Of a DNA stretch of 64,000 nucleotides, positions 4,492 to 56,474 are shown one piece after another (position 1 is the first letter of the stretch; every line of letters begins with the position of its first letter). The stretch spans positions 1,364,001-1,428,000 of the forward strand of contig NZ_JARUBH010000009.1 in assembly GCF_029626105.1 (NCBI RefSeq), given 5' to 3'. Made by a program: the position numbers and the translations under genes. The notes beneath the pieces are model-generated. The model was not told where the DNA came from, searched no databases, and was given only the letters and a program-made list of their open reading frames with translations. The stretch comes from Solwaraspora sp. WMMD792. GTDB lineage: Bacteria > Actinomycetota > Actinomycetes > Mycobacteriales > Micromonosporaceae.

Positions 4492-4932
4492 TGCCACTTC
4501 CTTGGATTCATGGCACAGGTGGGATGCGCACGCTGGCACGTGCGATCGATGTGTCGGTTGGTCGTCTCCGCCGGCTCGGGCGTTGGCCGGATCCCGGCTC
4601 GGCGCTCGGCGTGCCCTGGGCGGACGACTCGATCTGGGGGTTCGACCAGCGGCCCGCCCGGTGAGTCGCAGGTGTCACCCAAGACATCGATTGTGATCGA
4701 TAACAAGGTGGTCGTCAAGTCGTATCGGCCGGGATCGGCCCAAGAAGGTTGGGAGCTCACCGGCCGTCCCCCGATCGGATCGGTCCGTCGAGCGGGGGCG
4801 TTGTGAGCGGTAACAGCGATCGCTCCGGGCGCAGCGCCGTGGCAAACTACCTAGAGTTCTAGAACAGATGGTGATAGTTATAGAGTTGTCGAGGATGACT
4901 CGGACGGCTGACAGACGGAGAGGTGTGGCATC
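4492..4932. promoter_or_regulatory. Divergent control region between esterase and trpB
   Basis: 441 bp without a credible gene. It contains a LacI-like palindrome TGTGATCGATAACA (4692-4705), a perfect AGCGATCGCT (4815-4824) and a perfect GTTCTAGAAC (4856-4865) 68 bp upstream of the trpB start. The TCTAGA core of the last resembles operators of HutC-type GntR proteins, and such a regulator is the third gene of the trpBA operon. No Trp-rich leader peptide is visible, so classical attenuation is not supported. Confidence 0.45.
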
Positions 4933-53197: not shown

Positions 53198-53245
53198 ACT
53201 CACTGGCCGGAAACGAGCGCGACTCACTGGCCGGAAACGAGCGCG
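53198..53245. repeat. 24-bp perfect tandem duplication
   Basis: The 24-mer beginning ACTCACTGGCCGG occurs at 53198-53221 and 53222-53245. One copy contains the stop codon of the DUF1906 gene and its last codons; the other follows the stop. Recent slippage or unequal exchange. Confidence 0.9.
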
Positions 53246-54828
53246 GCGACCCCCGGATCGGCTCCGTCCCGCCATACGTCGTGCTCCAGTCCCCAGCCAG
53301 GCGTGAACTCGTACTCCCGGATCTGGTTGAACGCCCAGTTCGCCGGCAGCGGGAAGCCGAGGTTGCCGGAGTAGCCCCAGGACATCCCGGAAACCAGCGA
53401 CCACCGGGCGCCGACCTCCTGCGAGACGCGGCTGCAGACGTTGCGCGAGCCGTAGACTCCGAACTGGTAGTGGTCGCCCAACTCGGCGAGCGCCGCCTTC
53501 ACCCCTTGGAAGTACGGCTTGACTCCGCTGTCGATGTCGACGTCCAGAGCGTCGAAGTCGACCGCGAAGTAGATGCAGGTACCGGCGGGAATCCGGTGCG
53601 CTACGGCCTTTTGATGGGCGATCCGCCCCTGGTCGTACCCCTTCGGGTAGGTGAAGTTGCCCAGCTGAGTGCCGTTGTACTGGAAGATCGGGAAGAATCG
53701 CAGCCCGGCGTCCAGGATGGTCTCCGGTTCACCGGGCTTGAGCGCCTTGTCCAGAAAGTACGGGTCCGACGGCGGCAGATGCTCGTCGAGGTAGCGCCCG
53801 ACGATCCGGTAGCCGGCCGCGACGAGCTGCGCGCCACGGGCCGCGGTGATCTCGGTGATGCAGTCGCAGCCGGTGGCGGGCCGGCCGGTGTCGCCGCAGG
53901 AGACGAGCAGCTGGGCCCAGGTGGTGTAGTCGTTGGTGCCGCTCTCGGGGATCTGCGAGAAACGCTGGAAGGCGCGCAGCCACGCCAGGTGGGTGGCGGT
54001 CTCCACATCGGTGTCGATGTCCTGCGGGTGGTACGCCAGCGGCAGCTGTGGATCGCCCGGCAGTAAGGTCGGCGAGTTGACGTAGCACGCCGACCGGAAC
54101 AGGTGCCGCAGATCGCCGGTGAGCCGGCCGGAGCCGACCCCACGCAGCCCGGCCTGGGTGCCCGGCCCGAAGTTGCCGTTGATCGAGCCCAGCGGGATGC
54201 CGACCTCGTACTGGATGGCCATCATCAGCCCTTGCTGCACGTCCCGGGAGTAGAACCCGTCGCAGGGCACCAGGCTCATCGCCGGGATGCCGACGCCGGC
54301 CACGTAGCGCGAGTTCAACCGCTGCTGGATGCCCCGGACGGTGCTGTCACCCTGCGGCACCAGGCGGAACTGGTCCATCCGCAGCATCGCCCGCGCGACG
54401 TGCGGCCACATCGCCCGCCGGGCCGACAGGCCGGCGTACGACAGCCCGGCGTCGACGTAGAGCTGACTGAACGAGTCCTCCGAGCCGGCGGTCCAGACTC
54501 CTTGATCGGTGGCGGCCCAGTAGCCCTTGCACCACAGCGCGGCGTTGTAGATGCGGACCAGGTTGGTGTTGGTCTCCTCGGCTGGCAGCCGGTTACGCGT
54601 GCGGACCGCGGCGAGGGTGCCAGGCCCGAAGTTCTGCACCGTCGGCGAGATGCCGAGCTCGTACTGCAGCCCCTGGGTCAGCGAGAGTACGGTCGGCCAG
54701 CCGGTGCGCCCGTCTTCCGGGCAGCTGAGGTATCCCGGCGCGCCGGCGTAGGTGGCGTTGACCCACTGCTGGGCCGCGAGTACGTGGCTGTCCGCCAGGC
54801 TGGTCCGTGGCAGGCCGGAATCGATCAT
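53224..54828 (-). CDS. DUF1906 glycoside-hydrolase-like protein with peptidoglycan-binding repeats
   Basis: 534 aa from ATG 54828, for which GGGGG at 54838-54842 is well spaced; ATG 54837 is an alternative. No signal peptide. Two peptidoglycan-binding-like units (LTQGLQYELGISPTVQNFGPGTLAA ~res 55, and MMAIQYEVGIPLGSINGNFGPGT ~190) precede an Rv2525c-type TIM-barrel domain (~340-534: YRIVGRYLDEH, LRFFPIFQYNG, CIYFAVDFDALD). Such domains resemble GH25 lysozymes; export route unclear. Likely acts on the cell wall with its M15-like neighbour. Confidence 0.75.
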   Translation of the reverse strand: MIDSGLPRTSLADSHVLAAQQWVNATYAGAPGYLSCPEDGRTGWPTVLSLTQGLQYELGISPTVQNFGPGTLAAVRTRNRLPAEETNTNLVRIYNAALWCKGYWAATDQGVWTAGSEDSFSQLYVDAGLSYAGLSARRAMWPHVARAMLRMDQFRLVPQGDSTVRGIQQRLNSRYVAGVGIPAMSLVPCDGFYSRDVQQGLMMAIQYEVGIPLGSINGNFGPGTQAGLRGVGSGRLTGDLRHLFRSACYVNSPTLLPGDPQLPLAYHPQDIDTDVETATHLAWLRAFQRFSQIPESGTNDYTTWAQLLVSCGDTGRPATGCDCITEITAARGAQLVAAGYRIVGRYLDEHLPPSDPYFLDKALKPGEPETILDAGLRFFPIFQYNGTQLGNFTYPKGYDQGRIAHQKAVAHRIPAGTCIYFAVDFDALDVDIDSGVKPYFQGVKAALAELGDHYQFGVYGSRNVCSRVSQEVGARWSLVSGMSWGYSGNLGFPLPANWAFNQIREYEFTPGWGLEHDVWRDGADPGVAALVSGQ

Positions 54829-54978
54829 TTCAGACATCCCCCGTGCTGTCGTCCGATGATGTGGACGATACGGCCCATCAGACCGGGTTGTAAGTTGTCT
54901 GTCGTCGATCAACATCCTGGCCGGGGTCGGTCTTGACCTGGTCGATGGTGTGCCCAGCGGGTCCCGTCCGGACATGGC

Positions 54979-55011
54979 GAGGCCCGGAGAGCTGTCCTGT
55001 CTCCGGGCCTC
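54979..55011 (-). terminator. Terminator of the tRNA-like transcript
   Basis: 12-bp perfect stem (54979-54990 with 55000-55011), 9-nt loop, downstream of the tRNA-like units on the minus strand. Confidence 0.6.
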
Positions 55012-55071
55012 TGGGCTGCCGCCCATTTGCTGTCGCCAGTACGTTTAAAAGGGACAGATCACTCTTTATGA

Positions 55072-55138
55072 CGCCGGGTTTTGCCCTTAAACTACCGCGC
55101 CGCGGTGGAGGCGCGAGCTGGAATCGAACCAGCATCCA
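55072..55138 (-). tRNA. Permuted tRNA-like unit 2
   Basis: Read on the minus strand: T-arm GCTGG-TTCGATT-CCAGC (55133-55117), acceptor 3' strand TCGCGCC (55116-55110), T, CCA (55108-55106), a 4-nt linker, then acceptor 5' strand GGCGCGG (55101-55095), TA at positions 8-9, and a perfect D-arm GTTT-AAGGGCA-AAAC (55092-55078). The two acceptor strands pair in all seven positions (one G-U). So the 3' half lies before the 5' half. CGGCG (55076-55072) would be the anticodon-stem 5' strand; its partner cannot be placed with confidence, and no anticodon is assigned. Confidence 0.5.
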
Positions 55139-55214
55139 GCTGTCCCTGTCCGTCCCTCCTCGACCTGACAACCGGCGGCGAATGCTGAGCGTGGAGCGAG
55201 AGCCTGAGTGTGTG

Positions 55215-55296
55215 GCGGCTGCCTCTACCAGTTGGGCCACCCCGGTGTGGCTGGTACCGGGGGCGGGACTCGAACCCGCACTGGGACCGCTTCGTC
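55215..55296 (-). tRNA. Permuted tRNA-like unit 1
   Basis: Minus strand: candidate anticodon-stem 3' strand GCGGT (55290-55286), T-arm GCGGG-TTCGAGT-CCCGC (55279-55263), acceptor 3' strand CCCCGGT (55262-55256), discriminator A, encoded CCA (55254-55252), 5-nt linker, acceptor 5' strand ACCGGGG (55246-55240; perfect 7-bp pairing), U8, D-arm with AACTGGTAGA loop (55239-55221), and anticodon-stem 5' strand GCCGC (55219-55215), which pairs with GCGGT. Every helix closes only if the halves are swapped. The anticodon loop would be split across the ends and is not readable; no U33 is evident on the 5' side. Confidence 0.55.
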
Positions 55297-55331
55297 AGAT
55301 TCGTCGTCAGCTTCAGCTTGGTGCTCCTCCA

Positions 55332-55380
55332 CCGTCAGCCGGTGCGAACCCGGCTGACGGCCACCCCGGGGCTCAGTCCG
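55332..55380 (-). ncRNA. Leader hairpin and decayed junction upstream of the tRNA-like units
   Basis: A perfect 11-bp hairpin (55332-55342 with 55350-55360, 7-nt loop) lies upstream of unit 1 on the same strand. Just before it, CCCCGG...CCGGGGTGGCC resembles the acceptor-linker-acceptor junction of unit 1 without its CCA, and may be a degenerate third copy. Probably part of the same transcript. Confidence 0.35.
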
Positions 55381-55419
55381 GGGAGACTGTGATCGTATCC
55401 ACCGGCAGGTGGCTTGCGA

Positions 55420-56160
55420 CTACCCGAACAGGTAGCCAAAGACCGCGTCGCCGATGCGCTGGTCGGTGACCTCGGCGCCGTTGGCCTCCTCGCGGGCGAA
55501 CTTGACCGCGGTCTGCAGCGCCGCGATCCGGTCCAGCAACTCGTTGACCCGCCGGGCCGGCAGCGCACCGGAGAACTTCACCGTCGTCCAGTAGCCGACC
55601 GGTACGTCCTCGTAGTAGACCTCGACCTGCGCCGGGTGTTTGTCAGTCGCCTCGGCCTTGACATGGTTGCGGGGCACCTTCTTCGTCTTGACCGTACGCA
55701 CCGGATCGGTACGCCAGGAGTCGGTCGACTCGTCGCGGCTCCACGACTCGGCCGCGTCCAGCACCGGCAGCTTCTTGACGAAGGTGTGCAGGTCGACCAG
55801 CTGCTTCTCCAGGAACAGCAGGTACGACACCGGTGCGGCGGTGACCAGGGTCCGGCCGTCGACCACGACATCGGCGGTGGCCCGGGTGTTCGCCCAGTCC
55901 TTGGTCGCGGTCACGTCGAACAGCCGGGTCAGCGTCTTCGCCACGTCCCGCAGCACCTGCTCGGCGTGCACCTGGACCCGGGTCGACTCGGGCGGGAACT
56001 GCTCACCCTCCTCGTCCTTCGGCTGGTAGGTGCGGGAGATTCCGGACAGCAGCGGCTGCTTCTGCACCGCGTGGTGCGCCTCGGTCAACTCCGCGAAGGA
56101 CTTGCTCTTGACGCCCTTCTCCACCGCGATGATCTGGTTCAGCTTGGTCACGGCGATCAT
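55420..56160 (-). CDS. Conserved hypothetical protein upstream of the tRNA-like locus
   Basis: 246 aa from ATG 56160 (an in-frame start at 56178 is possible). Soluble, charged, no signal peptide or TM. Recognisable stretches: VTKLNQIIAVEKGVKSKS, LTEAHHAVQKQPLLSGISRTYQPKDEEGEQ, LPVLDAAESWSRDEST, EVYYEDVPVGYWTTVKFSGALPARRVNELL. I recall similar proteins in actinobacteria and their phages but cannot name a function. Same strand as, and directly upstream of, the tRNA-like units, so they may share a transcript. Confidence 0.7.
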   Translation of the reverse strand: MIAVTKLNQIIAVEKGVKSKSFAELTEAHHAVQKQPLLSGISRTYQPKDEEGEQFPPESTRVQVHAEQVLRDVAKTLTRLFDVTATKDWANTRATADVVVDGRTLVTAAPVSYLLFLEKQLVDLHTFVKKLPVLDAAESWSRDESTDSWRTDPVRTVKTKKVPRNHVKAEATDKHPAQVEVYYEDVPVGYWTTVKFSGALPARRVNELLDRIAALQTAVKFAREEANGAEVTDQRIGDAVFGYLFG

Positions 56161-56474
56161 GCTCGCAGACGACGTCAACCCGGCCGAACGGATTAACTCC
56201 GTCCGGGCCGGCTGAACCGGTCATTGTATCGATCATTGTTGCGTGCCAGAATTCGCCTCAGCCGCACCGGGAGCCAACGCGAGCGGCTCGTTTCAGACCG
56301 AGGGGACCGCCGGGGGTGACCACCATCCGGCGCCGGGCACTCCTCTCCCCAGCCCACCACGTCGACCGTCCTCGACCGTGCGGCCGCACCGTCCGAGGCA
56401 GATCCGGTCGCAAGCCGGTTCAGACCGACACTCCGGCCCGTGGTGGCAGCCCTGCGGATCTGTAGGAGAACGCA
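56161..56474. promoter_or_regulatory. Divergent spacer, hypothetical gene / GH6 cellulase
   Basis: 314 bp without a gene. TTGTATCGATCAT (56224-56236) resembles the LacI-type sites before the GH43 and PL11 genes but is one base shorter and closer to the minus-strand gene. No typical CebR box was seen. Confidence 0.3.

Follow-up and report, generated by a model that had tools for sequence, protein, structure and literature searches.

Organization of the DUF7873 locus

On the minus strand of the window (the whole stretch of 64,000 nt of Solwaraspora sp. WMMD792 DNA that was analysed), a gene encoding a DUF7873 protein was followed directly, at its 3′ side, by an RNA-like element. The element extended from approximately 55319 to 54979, exceeding the interval 55072-55296 to which the original prediction had confined it. 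Direct reading confirmed the predicted order on this strand, that is, T-arm, acceptor 3′ strand, CCA, linker, acceptor 5′ strand, positions 8-9, and D-arm, occurring twice in a row, and the GCCGC of unit 1 was read at 55219-55215 facing the GCGGT at 55290-55286, as had been proposed. The linker previously given as 4-5 nt held for the bases after CCA; counted from position 73, the acceptor linkers were 9 nt in head 1 and 8 nt in head 2. The parts of the locus, with the evidence in parentheses, were as follows.

55420-56178, minus strand: DUF7873 (PF25283) gene, the proposed companion of the RNA (Pfam, E = 1.1e-119)
55332-55385, minus strand: a pair of hairpins separating the RNA core from the DUF7873 stop codon, possibly the 5′ boundary of the RNA
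55291-55319, minus strand: S0, 5′ strand of stem P1, with repeats of about 6 nt (AAGCUGAAGCUGA..CUGA) and its partner at 55214-55181 (75-82% of alignment cells paired)
55286-55290, minus strand: GCGGU, 3′ strand of the anticodon-stem equivalent of head 1 (column pair 54:126 covaries)
55263-55279, minus strand: T-arm of head 1 (direct reading and covariation)
55256-55262, minus strand: acceptor 3′ strand of head 1, CCCCGGT (99.3% of cells paired, double changes in all 7 pairs)
55247-55255, minus strand: acceptor linker of head 1, A73-CCA plus 5 nt, the CCA ending at 55252 (direct reading)
55240-55246, minus strand: acceptor 5′ strand of head 1, ACCGGGG (free pairing test and alignment)
55239-55238, minus strand: U8 and G9 of head 1 (direct reading)
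55221-55237, minus strand: D-arm of head 1 (unit script and comparison of loci)
55215-55219, minus strand: GCCGC, 5′ strand of the anticodon-stem equivalent of head 1 (direct reading and alignment)
55181-55214, minus strand: mid region, 3′ strand of stem P1 (CUCAGGCUCUCGCUCC..CUCAGCAUU), highly conserved (alignment)
55146-55179, minus strand: 5′ strands of P2a, P2b, and P2c with a conserved internal loop of AUCGA type, here GUCGA (alignment)
55117-55133, minus strand: T-arm of head 2 (covariation)
55110-55116, minus strand: acceptor 3′ strand of head 2, TCGCGCC (99.0% of cells paired, free pairing test)
55102-55109, minus strand: acceptor linker of head 2, U73-CCA plus 4 nt, the CCA ending at 55106 (direct reading)
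55095-55101, minus strand: acceptor 5′ strand of head 2, GGCGCGG (free pairing test and alignment)
55094-55093, minus strand: U8 and A9 of head 2 (direct reading)
55078-55092, minus strand: D-arm of head 2, whose Levitt pair 15:48 covaries across loci (covariation)
55018-55057, minus strand: 3′ strands of P2c, P2b, and P2a with a conserved UUAAACG internal loop (covariation)
54979-55011, minus strand: P3, the 3′ hairpin, with a conserved loop of the GGN[TC]A class, here CAGGACAGC (comparison of loci)

The true start of the DUF7873 gene probably lies a little inside the ORF of 55420-56178. Neither ARAGORN (no tRNA) nor Rfam at the gathering threshold (no family) reported anything on the element. 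Elsewhere in the window, ARAGORN listed an undetermined tRNA with a 2-base anticodon at 4504-4595 on the plus strand, which is probably a false positive. The first listed start of a 600-aa ORF at 53224-55026 on the minus strand overlapped the P3 hairpin of the RNA; a start further downstream is more likely for this ORF.

Permuted units and conserved structure of the RNA

DUF7873 loci were collected from 150 genomes of the family of the organism (gene present in 80), 396 genomes of the phylum (gene present in 7), 73 records of named phages, 4 plasmid records, the best 80 of 567 GTDB genomes, and the best 80 of 326 IMG/VR entries. With a relaxed script that demands acceptor pairing, at least one permuted unit was found within 700 nt 3′ of DUF7873 in 193 of 206 loci, and exactly two in 148; bacterial loci had at least one in 119 of 119 cases and viral loci in 74 of 87. 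The same script found units in 0/206 reverse complements, 0/206 shuffles, and 9/204 upstream stretches. A strict script, which also demands the pairing, gave 186/206 loci with at least one unit and 124/206 with two (upstream, 6/204). All 13 loci lacking a unit by the relaxed script were viral. Nine of them yielded the RNA at 49.8 bits or more with the covariance model R1 (see below) and one (L047) gave only a distant match of 34.5 bits, while in the remaining three (L158, L159, and L189) the RNA was found neither by the unit scripts nor by R1.

In a free test, only the T-arm and D-arm served as anchors and acceptor pairing was not demanded. Among 275 units from 168 loci, 263 showed 7/7 acceptor pairs and 272 at least 6/7, upholding the pairing within each unit that had been predicted, whereas swapping acceptor strands between units gave 7/7 in 7.6% and at least 6/7 in 25.8%. 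The mismatch noted earlier in the linear reading was also borne out, since the 5′ strand of unit 1 matched the 3′ strand of unit 2 at 6/7 or better in only 16/125 loci and, on the alignment, linear acceptor pairs filled 61.3% of cells versus 59.5% in shuffles, 74 of 500 shuffles being as high. The permuted arrangement is real and exceeds chance.

The conserved structure was derived from an alignment (A3) of 41 diverse elements picked from loci that had already passed the T/acceptor/D filter. The 23 most strongly covarying column pairs belonged to the T stems and acceptor stems of the two units, to the D stem and the anticodon-stem equivalent of unit 2, or to P2b and P2c; of the top 110 column pairs, 45 were paired in more than 80% of rows, and much of the lower part of this ranking is background. 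A 78-pair model, whose counts lean towards the model because it was drawn from A3 and from folds of A3 rows, had 87.2% of cells paired and changes on both sides in 62 pairs, with none of 500 shuffles as high; its covariation score was 0.472, compared with 0.187 for shuffles and no more than 0.131 after sliding the model. Double changes occurred in all 14 pairs of the two acceptor stems, the compensatory changes between acceptor strands of homologous loci by which two tandem permuted tRNA-like units in an actinobacterium, as first proposed, gain strong support. P2b (99.2% of cells paired) and P2c (88.5%) had double changes in every pair, while P2a had 73.2% of cells paired, and P1, the weakest supported stem, had 75-82% paired with few double changes. 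RNAalifold on A3 predicted both heads, P2b, and P2c, and predicted neither P1 nor P2a. The unconstrained fold of the window RNA contained head 2 and P2 and lacked head 1, with a z of only -1.97. The anticodon-stem positions were paired in 67% and 60% of cells in the two heads, and the stretch at the place of a closing anticodon loop varied in length and sequence.

The Levitt pair 15:48 of head 2 was A:U in 114/125 loci and G:C in 11/125, with no mixed pair, and that of head 1 was A:U in 123/125; because this tertiary pair is retained and covaries, the heads look like genuine tRNA elbows. P3 was present in 95/125 loci, 85 of these 95 having a GGN[TC]A loop, which is conserved in hosts and phages alike on a stem that varies. 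Among 194 distinct units, the acceptor linker measured 5-12 nt in 144, was longer in 48, and was 4 nt or less in 2; counted by locus, linkers of 4 nt or less occurred in head 1 of 9/125 and head 2 of 1/125. The linker started with N73-C74 in 180/194 distinct units and had CCA after N73 in 66/194. In head 2, N73 followed the pair 1:72, with G73 in 15/15 distinct units having U1:A72, and U73 in 65 and G73 in 11 of those having G1:C72. The base at -1 was U in 39/61 distinct viral units and 30/133 distinct bacterial units.

Linkage to DUF7873 and distribution

The model R1 covers head 2 plus P2 and was built from 40 rows, taken in part from the same genomes and viral loci that were later searched with it. 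In the window it matched 55034-55170 with 109.8 bits, a score that is high by construction, the window copy being a row of the model. With a line of 57 bits, chosen after the match list had been seen, all 80 matches in the 150 family genomes lay within 556 nt of DUF7873, and 80 of the 81 DUF7873 copies had such a match within this distance; the exceptional copy was partial (residues 48-185). No match of at least 57 bits occurred in the 70 family genomes lacking DUF7873. The next match below the line (G029:C54:4691-4812, 54.0 bits) came from a genome with neither DUF7873 nor a TROVE match and is possibly a lone RNA, while weaker matches lay beside TROVE genes or elsewhere, as expected of YrlA. 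The distance between gene and RNA was 144-556 nt in the family genomes. In phages and viruses, 76/92 loci had an R1 match of at least 56 bits. In L196 the RNA lay upstream of DUF7873, and L197 had it on the strand opposite the gene; therefore, it is not merely a 3′ UTR.

Two loci carried a damaged gene. At G067:C1:3149090-3149545, the RNA was retained with 107.3 bits and DUF7873 was reduced to a C-terminal match of 32 residues, and a viral DUF7873 (L173, 2501-3235) contained an in-frame stop, the RNA match downstream of it looking intact (85.6 bits). In the congeneric genome G105, the flanks were collinear with those of the window and the equivalent of 54812-56213, that is, gene plus RNA, was absent; the element occupying this gap (L243, G105:C1:4978500-4981600), with serine recombinase and TnpB-like ORFs, is one that we take to be IS607-like.

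DUF7873 had a patchy distribution, being found in 7 of 396 genomes of the phylum and in about half (80/150) of the genomes sampled from the window's family; a DUF7873 match also came from Deinobacterium chartae. Among the best 80 of 567 GTDB genomes, the gene-RNA system occurred in many Streptomyces. Besides soil bacteria, the pair was present in phages with very different hosts, namely Arthrobacter, Gordonia, Rhodococcus, Pseudanabaena, Rhizobium, Vibrio, and Klebsiella. Copies in Arthrobacter, Rhodococcus, Gordonia, and Rhizobium phages lay within tRNA clusters; no tRNA was annotated in the stretches from Klebsiella, Pseudanabaena, and Microcoleus phages. Beside DUF7873 proteins of about 30-41% identity, two permuted units each were found in a Klebsiella phage and a Pseudanabaena phage, and one each in three Rhizobium and two Vibrio phages; in a Microcoleus phage, units beside DUF7873 were not clearly found. 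The tRNA cluster of Gordonia phage Phendrix additionally contained an Rfam tmRNA match of 89 bits (L044, 572-1100), which is absent from the feature table there.

A Pfam search of the protein up to E 0.001 gave DUF7873 as the only family. The AlphaFold model (mean pLDDT 91.0, pTM 0.68) consisted of long helices and a long beta-hairpin bearing a conserved basic RTKKVPRNHVKAEAT-like region. Among the matches listed in the fold comparison, there was no close solved fold, no recognisable fold or motif, and no TROVE chain. It is solely from the gene-RNA linkage that we infer RNA binding by DUF7873, and the beta-hairpin may be the contacting part.

Relation to YrlA and proposed function

At permissive settings, the Rfam model of the bacterial Y RNA YrlA (RF02553) matched both heads in the window (E 0.002 and 0.01; 26.4 and 24.0 bits), below the gathering cut-off of 69 bits. 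In the 150 family genomes, it gave 136 matches at E up to 0.001, none of which exceeded the gathering score. Because the TROVE-linked copies miss the cut-off as well, it is no argument against membership in YrlA. Fifty-seven of these matches lay within 3 kb of a TROVE (Ro60) gene, 48 within 1 kb of DUF7873, and 31 elsewhere, with none near both. An actinobacterial case, of which none had been held to be established, is thus at hand in the YrlA-model matches beside Ro60 genes in relatives of the organism. No TROVE/Ro60 gene was found in the window's genome or in six other genomes of the genus examined.

The two RNAs have in common a permuted head of T-arm, acceptor, and D-arm on a long stem, paired ends, and the lack of an anticodon. 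They differ in that the DUF7873 RNA has two heads (three in 3/4 loci of genus g13), DUF7873 as neighbour instead of Ro60, an extra P3 hairpin, a presence in phages, and an acceptor linker that usually starts N73-C74, whereas TROVE-linked YrlA mostly has a short closing loop. The last feature was taken from the nine TROVE-linked loci that were read, with 14 units, nine having acceptor loops of 4-5 nt such as UUCG, three an 8-nt linker with ends able to extend the pairing, and two differing otherwise; one unit of L218, a TROVE-linked locus, had an ACCACCC linker. Since the DUF7873 RNA, for all its permuted head on a stem of paired ends, has neither the Ro60/TROVE neighbour nor the short closing loop, it was not placed in YrlA. 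In genus g13, the third permuted unit (L022, L021, and L025) lay about 480-570 nt past the DUF7873 stop codon, after the two usual ones, and had a 6-bp acceptor stem and a 4-nt loop. It resembles a YrlA appended to the DUF7873 RNA and thus seems to link the two kinds of RNA.

Other systems resembled the element in part. Two-piece tmRNA also has a permuted gene, for which processing by RNase P and tRNase Z is called probable in a review (PMC3985003), and a cut of RNase P type at the acceptor would likewise leave a nicked RNA held by pairing. The DUF7873 RNA differs in having two acceptor ends, D-arms with GG, and no conserved G3:U70; the pair 3:70 was mostly C:G or G:C in both units, with G3:U70 in 0/15 bacterial and 1/25 viral distinct acceptor stems of unit 1 and in 3/29 and 0/25, respectively, of unit 2. 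The Rfam tmRNA covariance model gave no match on the element. Rfam includes the families GOLLD and ROOL. They are described as large phage-encoded RNAs, often near tRNAs and with function unassigned (PMC12286853), and thus resemble the present RNA as structured RNAs of phages; the present RNA gave no Rfam match to them, is accompanied by a protein gene, and has heads that mimic tRNA.

The reading as tRNA genes whose halves are joined after transcription into decoding tRNAs, as in red algae and some archaea, agrees with the reversed order, the covarying complementary acceptor stems, the canonical T and D arms, and the CCA encoded after N73 in one third of the distinct units. However, there is no conserved anticodon stem-loop to join, and the chain continues without interruption into P1, P2b, and P2c, so that conserved helices run through the would-be join. 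To our knowledge, bacteria lack the splicing endonuclease, and the YrlA module has the same reversed order and needs no ligation. The part of the original prediction that called the units tRNA genes is therefore abandoned as very improbable. Decay of a linear tRNA array with accidental pairing has next to no probability; several phage members do lie within tRNA clusters and the fragments resemble pieces of tRNA, but linear acceptor pairing stays near shuffle level and the permuted pairing is maintained by double changes, which, together with the free pairing test, refute it.

A cis-acting tRNA-like 3′ UTR of the DUF7873 mRNA, serving 3′-end formation or autoregulation, would suit the position of the RNA, which in most loci is 3′ of the gene on the same strand and at short distance. 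It is nevertheless quite unlikely, given the upstream and opposite-strand copies, the complexity of a two-domain structure, and the retention of the RNA beside a 32-residue remnant of DUF7873. That the RNA is a plain member of the YrlA family, with Ro60 lost or swapped and DUF7873 a bystander, we regard as unlikely: the topology is shared, the YrlA model matches, and g13 has a third, YrlA-like unit, yet the two-head architecture, the acceptor linker, the tight linkage to DUF7873 in place of TROVE, and the genomes of the genus without TROVE speak against it.

The secondary structure of the heads and P2, the covarying tertiary pair of tRNA type, and the tight gene-RNA linkage are best explained by an independent non-coding RNA, roughly 340 nt long, acting together with DUF7873 as a Ro60-free, Y-RNA-like ribonucleoprotein, a reading to which we give a probability of about three in four. 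Such a two-headed permuted tRNA-mimic RNA has apparently not been described before. In this RNA, the long hairpins P1 and P2 would follow one another, and each would be topped by a permuted tRNA-like head, in which the chain would enter on the anticodon-stem side, run through the T-arm, the acceptor 3′ strand, a short linker, the acceptor 5′ strand, and the D-arm, and leave again; the YrlA topology would thus be used twice, with a partner protein other than Ro60. DUF7873 would hold the RNA, probably via the P1 and P2 stems and the conserved internal loops. The heads, having elbows and acceptor ends and no anticodon, may recruit or occupy enzymes that recognise tRNA, candidates being RNase P, the CCA-adding enzyme, modification enzymes, and nucleases. 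By analogy, the RNA plausibly works like YrlA, for which modification by TruB and DusA and tethering of PNPase are reported in a review (PMC8394870) and competition with tRNA for an anticodon nuclease is suggested (PMC7790460). Its occurrence in phage tRNA clusters suggests a role in tRNA metabolism, whether as adaptor or as decoy.

With less certainty, cleavage by RNase P at the acceptor 5′ strands may turn the RNA into a nicked molecule of three pieces. N73 tracking the pair 1:72, the prevalence of C74, and U at -1 in viral units are hints of cut acceptor ends. The full form of this idea, in which RNase P cuts both heads and mature CCA ends make a three-piece ribonucleoprotein that lacks an anticodon and has two free acceptor ends, perhaps aminoacylated, is doubtful; if true, it would represent a new class of tRNA-like RNA, spread by phages and drawing on or interfering with tRNA metabolism.

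These findings suggest that Ro60 is not a necessary partner of the permuted tRNA-mimic head known from Y RNAs, there being a second system with its own protein, and DUF7873 gains a likely role as an RNA partner. The system is invisible to ARAGORN and to Rfam at its thresholds. As naturally doubled tRNA mimics, these RNAs may serve as probes for the action of RNase P, the CCA-adding enzyme, TruB, and EF-Tu on permuted tRNA, and their occurrence suggests that phages control tRNA biology at a further level, as yet uncharted.
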